From Tepidiforma sp. (GTDB lineage: Bacteria > Chloroflexota > Dehalococcoidia > Tepidiformales > Tepidiformaceae): a stretch of 64,000 nt of DNA. Below the pieces are notes generated by a model that was not told the origin of the DNA, searched no databases, and saw only the letters and a program-made list of their open reading frames with translations. The position numbers were made by a program, and so were the translations under genes. This document shows positions 37,987 to 39,108 of the stretch, piece by piece. Location: the NCBI GenBank assembly GCA_026003935.1, contig BPIE01000001.1, positions 868,001 to 932,000 of the forward strand, read 5' to 3'. Position 1 is the stretch's first letter. Each line of letters opens with the position of its first letter.

Positions 37987-39108
37987 TCAGGCCTCCGGCG
38001 CGGAAATGGGCAGCGGCGGCTGCCAGCTGCCAGTGTACCCGCGGATGAGGACATCGGGCGGGAGGGGTGTGATTTCGACGGGGTCGAGGTGGACGGGAGG
38101 GAGCCCGGAGCCGGGCGGGAGGAGCGGGATGCCGGCTGGCCCGAGGATGCGCGGCGTGACGTAGGCGTGGATTTCGTCGACGAGGTTGTCGGCGAGGAAG
38201 GAGGCGTGGACGGTGGGGCCGCCTTCGACGATGAGGGACTGGATGTTGCGCTGGCCGAGTGCGCGGAGGAGCTGGTGGAGCTCGAGCCGGCCGGCTGTGT
38301 GTTCGAGCTCGAGGATGGTTGCGCCGCGGGCGCGCAGGGCTTCGCGCCATGCGGGCGCTGAGCCCTGTGCGGTGGCGACGATGACGGGTGCGCCGGGGTG
38401 GAAGACGCGTGCTTCGGGGTCGATGCGTCCGCGCGCGTCGAGGACGATGCGGGCGGGCTGGCGTTGGGCGGGCGTTCCGCCCGGGCGGGCGGTGAGCGCG
38501 GGGTCGTCGGCGAGGATGGTTCCGCTGCCGACGAGGATGGCATCGACCCAGTCGCGGTCGCGGTGGGCGCGGGCGACGGCGGCTTCGCCGGTGAGCCAGG
38601 TGATGCCTGCGGCCGGTGCACCGACGGCGCCATCGAGGCTGACGGCGAACTTTGCGATGACGTAGGGGATGCCGAGCTGGCGCCACTTGAGGTAGGGGCG
38701 GAGGAGGTCGGCAACGGCCTCGGCGCCGTCGCCGATTTCGACGTCGACGCCGGCTGCGCGGAGGCGCTGGATGCCGGGGCCGCCAACGTGCGGGTCGAGG
38801 AGGGCGACGACGACGCGTCGGACGCCGGCGGCGATGATGGCTTCGGAGCAGGGGGGCGTGCGCTTGCCGGGGAAGGGGACGCAGGGTTCGAGGGTGCAGT
38901 ACAGCGTTGCGCCGCGGGCATCGGGGCCGGCTGCGGCGAGCGCTGCGGCTTCGGCGTGTGGGCCGCCGTAGGGGGCCGTGGCGCCGCGGGCGATGACCCG
39001 GCCGTCGCGGACGACCACGGCTCCGACCCATGGGTTTGGCGAGGTACGGCCGCGGACGGCGGCGGCGAGCTGGATGGCCTCGTGCATGAAGGGGGAGGGC
39101 TGGCCCAT
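37987..39108 (-). CDS. ribD: bifunctional riboflavin biosynthesis protein RibD
   Basis: A 373-residue RibD with an N-terminal deaminase and a C-terminal reductase of pyrimidine intermediates in riboflavin synthesis. Zinc ligands are in GGPHAEAAAL (His, catalytic Glu) and in LEPCVPFPGKRTPPC. The latter has a C-x10-C spacing where C-x8-C is usual. The reductase half begins IPYVIAKFAVSLDGAVG and has TWLTGEAAVARAHRDRDWVDAILVGSGT. No ribB/A, ribE or ribH nearby. TACCCT lies 6 nt before the ATG, so it is probably leaderless. Confidence 0.93.
   Translation of the reverse strand: MGQPSPFMHEAIQLAAAVRGRTSPNPWVGAVVVRDGRVIARGATAPYGGPHAEAAALAAAGPDARGATLYCTLEPCVPFPGKRTPPCSEAIIAAGVRRVVVALLDPHVGGPGIQRLRAAGVDVEIGDGAEAVADLLRPYLKWRQLGIPYVIAKFAVSLDGAVGAPAAGITWLTGEAAVARAHRDRDWVDAILVGSGTILADDPALTARPGGTPAQRQPARIVLDARGRIDPEARVFHPGAPVIVATAQGSAPAWREALRARGATILELEHTAGRLELHQLLRALGQRNIQSLIVEGGPTVHASFLADNLVDEIHAYVTPRILGPAGIPLLPPGSGLPPVHLDPVEITPLPPDVLIRGYTGSWQPPLPISAPEA

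Follow-up and report, generated by a model that had tools for sequence, protein, structure and literature searches.

The 64,000 nt window encodes, on the minus strand at 37987..39108, a bifunctional deaminase/reductase of 373 aa that is identified as RibD by TIGR00326, Pfam and a structural match. The protein scores 285.2 bits against the TIGR00326 equivalog (cut-off 156.35) and has the RibD domain arrangement, i.e., an N-terminal zinc deaminase domain (PF00383, residues 5-102) fused to a RibD_C reductase domain (PF01872, residues 148-354, E 1.6e−49; 38047..38667, minus strand). The zinc site consists of an HxE motif and two Cys. H51-A52-E53 (38950..38958, minus strand) supplies the zinc ligand His and the catalytic Glu, roles described for the A. 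baumannii RibD (PMC3668577, section 3.3), and C76 and C87 are the other ligands. The HAE triplet and both Cys are invariant across 32 aligned rows from the order that includes Tepidiforma (hereafter the order). A gene for an EVE-domain protein (PF01878; 37522-37986, minus strand) lies directly downstream, its start immediately adjoining the ribD stop.

The closest named relatives of the window RibD are also from Tepidiforma (81-83% identity), among them the complete chromosome of T. flava (L093). Tepidiforma is placed in the class Dehalococcoidia (PMC10284905, accessible part). No second RibD over the TIGR00326 cut-off was found in the window's genome, which is incomplete (72.6%), and each of the 32 order genomes with any match over the cut-off has exactly one. 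The ribE, ribBA and ribH genes are found together in the same genome, approximately 100 kb from ribD (G000 C1, near 803.8-806.1 kb). Since there is a single RibD over the cut-off, its catalytic residues are intact, and other riboflavin genes are present, the ordinary reaction is favored. The protein is most likely the cell's ordinary RibD, catalyzing the usual two riboflavin steps.

The zinc loop of this RibD is longer than usual. The initial annotation reported C-x10-C spacing in place of C-x8-C (hereafter x10 and x8), and the translation bears this out. It reads ...LYCTLEPCVPFPGKRTPPCSEAII... with HAE upstream, the reading frame is intact, and ten residues separate C76 (38881-38883) from C87 (38848-38850), giving the loop C76-VPFPGKRTPP-C87 (38848..38883, minus strand). 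The peptide quoted there, LEPCVPFPGKRTPPC, is present as well; its true span is 38848-38892, a few bases off the 38850-38900 originally given. An alignment to RibG of B. subtilis (2b3z) requires two additional residues in the window RibD. The protein shares with bacterial RibD/RibG (TIGR00326; B. subtilis 2b3z/4g3m) the domain order, the HAE and two Cys ligands, an Arg/Lys-Thr pair before the second Cys, and the reductase domain. It differs in the stretch P78-F79-P80-G81-K82 (38863..38877, minus strand), which carries the net gain of two residues, lacks the PCxH histidine and adds an invariant Lys82, as counted over 33 order loops and 131 x8 loops. The pair R83-T84 (38857..38862, minus strand) is retained; by alignment to 2b3z it corresponds to the phosphate-binding residues Arg84-Thr85 of A. 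baumannii (PMC3668577), and Arg83 to Lys79 of B. subtilis.

The position of the loop beside the substrate, also proposed in the initial annotation, agrees with published structures. The loop His, Arg and Thr of A. baumannii RibD are located at the substrate phosphate (PMC3668577, section 3.3), as is Lys79 of B. subtilis RibG (PMC8256712, accessible part), and a change of Lys79 to Ala in the B. subtilis protein abolishes activity (PMC3668577, section 3.3). The exact motif PCXHXG(R/K)TPPC, canonical according to PMC3668577, is not found in the window RibD, which reads PCVPFPGKRTPPC, two residues longer and with no His. We take the motif as a description and not as a strict definition of RibD, because the His is also absent from 25/131 x8 loops (phylum loci plus ten named others); it is present two residues after the first ligand in the other 106. 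Arg occupies the phosphate place in 112/131. For the Chloroflexota RibDs read here the motif is too strict.

The loop was readable in 33/38 genomes of the order (16/18 genera) and is C-x10-C in every one of them. Of the remaining five, G007 and G029 have a fragment lacking the loop, G013 and G018 have a reductase-like paralogue alone, and G037 has no match. Searches at the order and family level returned the identical 38 genomes. Three named records (L092-L094) have the same deaminase segments as L025-L027, are probably from the same genomes, and were not added to the counts. Outside of the order, none of the 127 phylum loci that were read is x10: 114 are C-x8-C, eight are H-x8-C, two are x9, one is x12 and two are x14. 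This sample consists of the best 30 matches of a phylum search (301 genomes, 179 over the cut-off), 60 picked from its list, and 37 class members outside the order (class search: 245 genomes, 226 with a match); unpicked listed matches, matches below those listed and genomes without a match fall outside it. The 37 class loci were those outside the order that best match the window's protein, a choice that should favor x10, and even there x10 is absent. The initial annotation had suggested comparison with other Chloroflexota RibDs and would have discounted the finding had the same spacing been common in the phylum; within this sample it is restricted to the order.

Beyond the phylum, the comparison covers three sets. 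Of eight named loci (L098-L105, not all of certain phylum), seven are x8 and one is x9 (L101). Four plasmid-borne RibDs, picked among 20 matches listed, are all x8, as are the solved RibDs of B. subtilis, E. coli, K. oxytoca and A. baumannii; T. maritima 2hxv and 9no2 were not in the comparison. The named-locus set was partly found via the peptide YCTLEPCV and is hence biased to that peptide. Of its 65 loci, 14 (L092-L105) were counted as RibD and 51 (L106-L156) were left out, most of which have a short spacing, x2, as in a different type of deaminase. Three PDB entries titled 3-dehydroquinate dehydratase I from Klebsiella oxytoca (8dq9, 8dqb, 8dqc) have a RibD sequence and fold, and their titles look mislabeled.

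Other departures from the x8 loop occur in the phylum and among the named loci. Loops of unusual length were seen in L220, L227 and L101 (x9), L186 (x12), and L187 and L188 (x14). The Dehalococcoidia RibDs L186, L187 and L188 resemble those of the order in having a lengthened loop with both Cys kept, and L186 also reads EGKR before HPPC, like the order loop. They differ in length and lie outside the order's branch on the tree described below. The first zinc Cys is replaced by His in the eight H-x8-C loci (LEPH...C), L160-L163 of family f19 and L232, L234, L246 and L253 of family f29. This replacement maps as two changes on the tree, which includes seven of the eight (L253 is absent). A zinc site made up of His, His and Cys would depart further from the usual than the x10 spacing does. 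The x9, x12 and x14 loops together with the Cys to His ligand changes indicate that the loop tolerates change in the phylum.

Within the order the loop is tightly conserved, with the consensus C-x-P-F-x-G-K-R-T-x-x-C. Across the 33 RibDs, F, K and T are each found in 33, G and R in 32, and P in 31; the other four inner positions are freer. Since six inner positions are conserved despite a mean pairwise identity of 61% (lowest 45%; 32 RibDs, excluding the partial L176), the loop is maintained in the order. Conservation of an active-site loop is by itself nothing unusual, because 52/142 deaminase columns are conserved at ≥94%, i.e., at least to the level of these loop positions.

A maximum-likelihood tree of 105 RibDs was built by a quick method with the loop columns removed. 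The x10 loop maps as one change on this tree, with all 32 order rows grouped in a single branch (SH-aLRT 96). Deeper placement is unsure since 44/101 inner branches are open. The simplest reading is a single gain of x10 in the ancestor of the order. The lengthenings in L186 and in L187/L188 look independent of it, although the deeper branches are weak. Judging from the sequences compared, the two-residue extension is an order-wide lineage trait and not confined to the window protein, since it is found in every readable order loop and in none of the 127 loci outside, and maps as a single change. We found no publication on a RibD insertion or conserved signature indel, or on RibD deaminase zinc binding in Chloroflexi; the subscription literature was mostly beyond the scope of the search, and absence is unproven. 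Within the same limits, a match for Tepidiformia and riboflavin concerned another genus.

An AlphaFold2 model of the window RibD (14 rows, mean pLDDT 87.7) most closely matches the B. subtilis RibG structure 4g3m (E 4.1e−37, 36% identity). A model of the x8 relative L095 served as the control. The zinc loop sits between the same strand and helix in both models, spanning 13 residues in the window protein versus 11 in the control. Model confidence in the loop is moderate, with block means of 83 (residues 71-80) and 79 (residues 81-90), compared to 76 and 96 in the control, where part of the zinc loop is weakly predicted too. The models also differ at a second active-site loop, beta4-alphaD, where strand and helix are separated by seven residues in the window protein versus nine in the control.

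The beta4-alphaD loop, D105-PHVGGPG (38773..38796, minus strand), is two residues shorter than DPNPxVxGxG, a further difference between Tepidiforma and bacterial RibD/RibG. In RibG of B. subtilis, Asp101 and Asn103 contact the ribose, and both ligand-flanking loops move upon binding (PMC8256712, accessible part). Asp105, the match to Asp101, is invariant in the 32 order rows. At the position of the ribose-contacting Asn, the order has other residues, most often Asp, Glu or His. The short loop is found in 8/33 order RibDs (6/6 of the window's genus and 2/4 of genus g3). Loss of the Asn is thus wider than the shortening, as it extends across the order.

We consider the x10 loop a real inherited variant of a known enzyme, probably without new function. 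Nothing in the data indicates the altered specificity or stability that the initial annotation considered possible. The explanation that we find quite likely as a whole is that this is an ordinary RibD whose loop gained two residues, most simply in a single event in the order's ancestor, and whose phosphate clamp was re-packed with Lys82. As the comparison shows, the longer loop has stayed nearly fixed since. The zinc site would be unchanged, and by homology His51, Cys76 and Cys87 would bind zinc while Glu53 activates water. The substrate phosphate would still be gripped by the Arg-Thr pair that precedes Cys87, and Lys82 would probably replace the lost histidine of PCxHxG(R/K)TPPC as a second phosphate ligand. 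Pro78-Phe79 may pack the longer loop. The facing beta4-alphaD loop would later have lost two residues in Tepidiforma, perhaps to fit the longer zinc loop. Compensation by Lys is not required for loss of the His, since the His is missing in 25/131 x8 loops as noted above, and compensation between the two loops is not general, since just 8/33 order RibDs have the short beta4-alphaD loop. The sequences argue for a lineage-wide variant of a known enzyme loop that is probably functional and most likely supports the ordinary reaction.

Much of this history is shared by a neutral reading, in which the length change was fixed by drift with new local packing. It overlaps the re-packed clamp and differs in that Lys82 has no special role and substrate, kinetics and stability are unaffected. 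We regard it as possible, if clearly the less probable of the two. A neutral change would also fit the other loop lengths found in normal-looking RibDs of the class and phylum (the x9, x12 and x14 loci above). Arg or Lys plus Thr is kept before the second Cys in the order. Conservation speaks against it, as six of the ten inner loop positions are at least 93% conserved over 33 RibDs from 16 genera at the mean identity given above, which suggests constraint. This argument is tempered by the many deaminase columns that are equally conserved, and constraint is not the same as changed function. A six-base assembly or sequencing error has a negligible probability. We found no point in its support, and it is rejected because relatives share the loop length, which recurs in every order locus that could be read and in three named records, one of them the complete T. 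flava chromosome. The extension could alternatively be an adaptation of thermophiles to heat, as T. flava and T. thermophila have an optimum of 55-60°C (PMC10284905, accessible part). The longer loop also contains prolines, but the trait spans 16 genera of the order. Azospirillum thermophilum, a hot-spring organism outside the order, has an x8 plasmid RibD, albeit as a single organism. An adaptation of this kind seems unlikely.

The order may have rebuilt both its ribose/phosphate loops, first by the gain of two residues in the zinc loop together with a His-to-Lys exchange of phosphate ligands and later, in Tepidiforma and part of a neighboring genus, by the loss of two residues in the beta4-alphaD loop. 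The deaminase might then prefer a different substrate, perhaps the reduced intermediate that is used in fungi and archaea; we rate this as improbable. The specific proposal that the deaminase acts on the reduced (ribityl) intermediate, with reduction before deamination as for fungal Rib2, is just as doubtful. Both of the loops that close on the ligand in B. subtilis RibG (PMC8256712, accessible part) are altered in Tepidiforma. Rib2 of A. oryzae, which uses the ribityl substrate, shares the HxE and two Cys zinc ligands and also has spacing longer than x8 (Cys102 to Cys112, x9), according to the accessible part of PMC8256712. As described there, Rib2 acts after reduction, has no reductase domain in the same step order, and carries its basic loop residue, Arg105, three residues after Cys102. 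The window protein has Phe79 three after C76, and its Arg83 retains the position typical of RibD, four residues ahead of the second Cys. The RibD score well over the cut-off and the invariant Asp105 also argue against a Rib2-like shift.

The two-residue insertion in a conserved enzyme offers a clean molecular marker for the order around Tepidiforma. It is also a natural experiment on the extent of change that the RibD zinc loop can undergo without loss of the enzyme.

The neighborhood of ribD is partly conserved as well. Neither RibD nor riboflavin turned up when the main text of a paper on EVE genomic context (PMC7641849) was searched by word. By tblastn, the EVE gene was not found beside ribD in five order loci (L005, L006, L014, L021, L022), nor in any of the 41 loci from outside the order, whose flanks extend about 1.5 or 3 kb and in some cases are truncated at a contig end. 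It is beside ribD in 27/32 order loci, or 24/29 without three named near-duplicates, such that a gene of vitamin synthesis and one for a presumed reader of modified bases are conserved neighbors.
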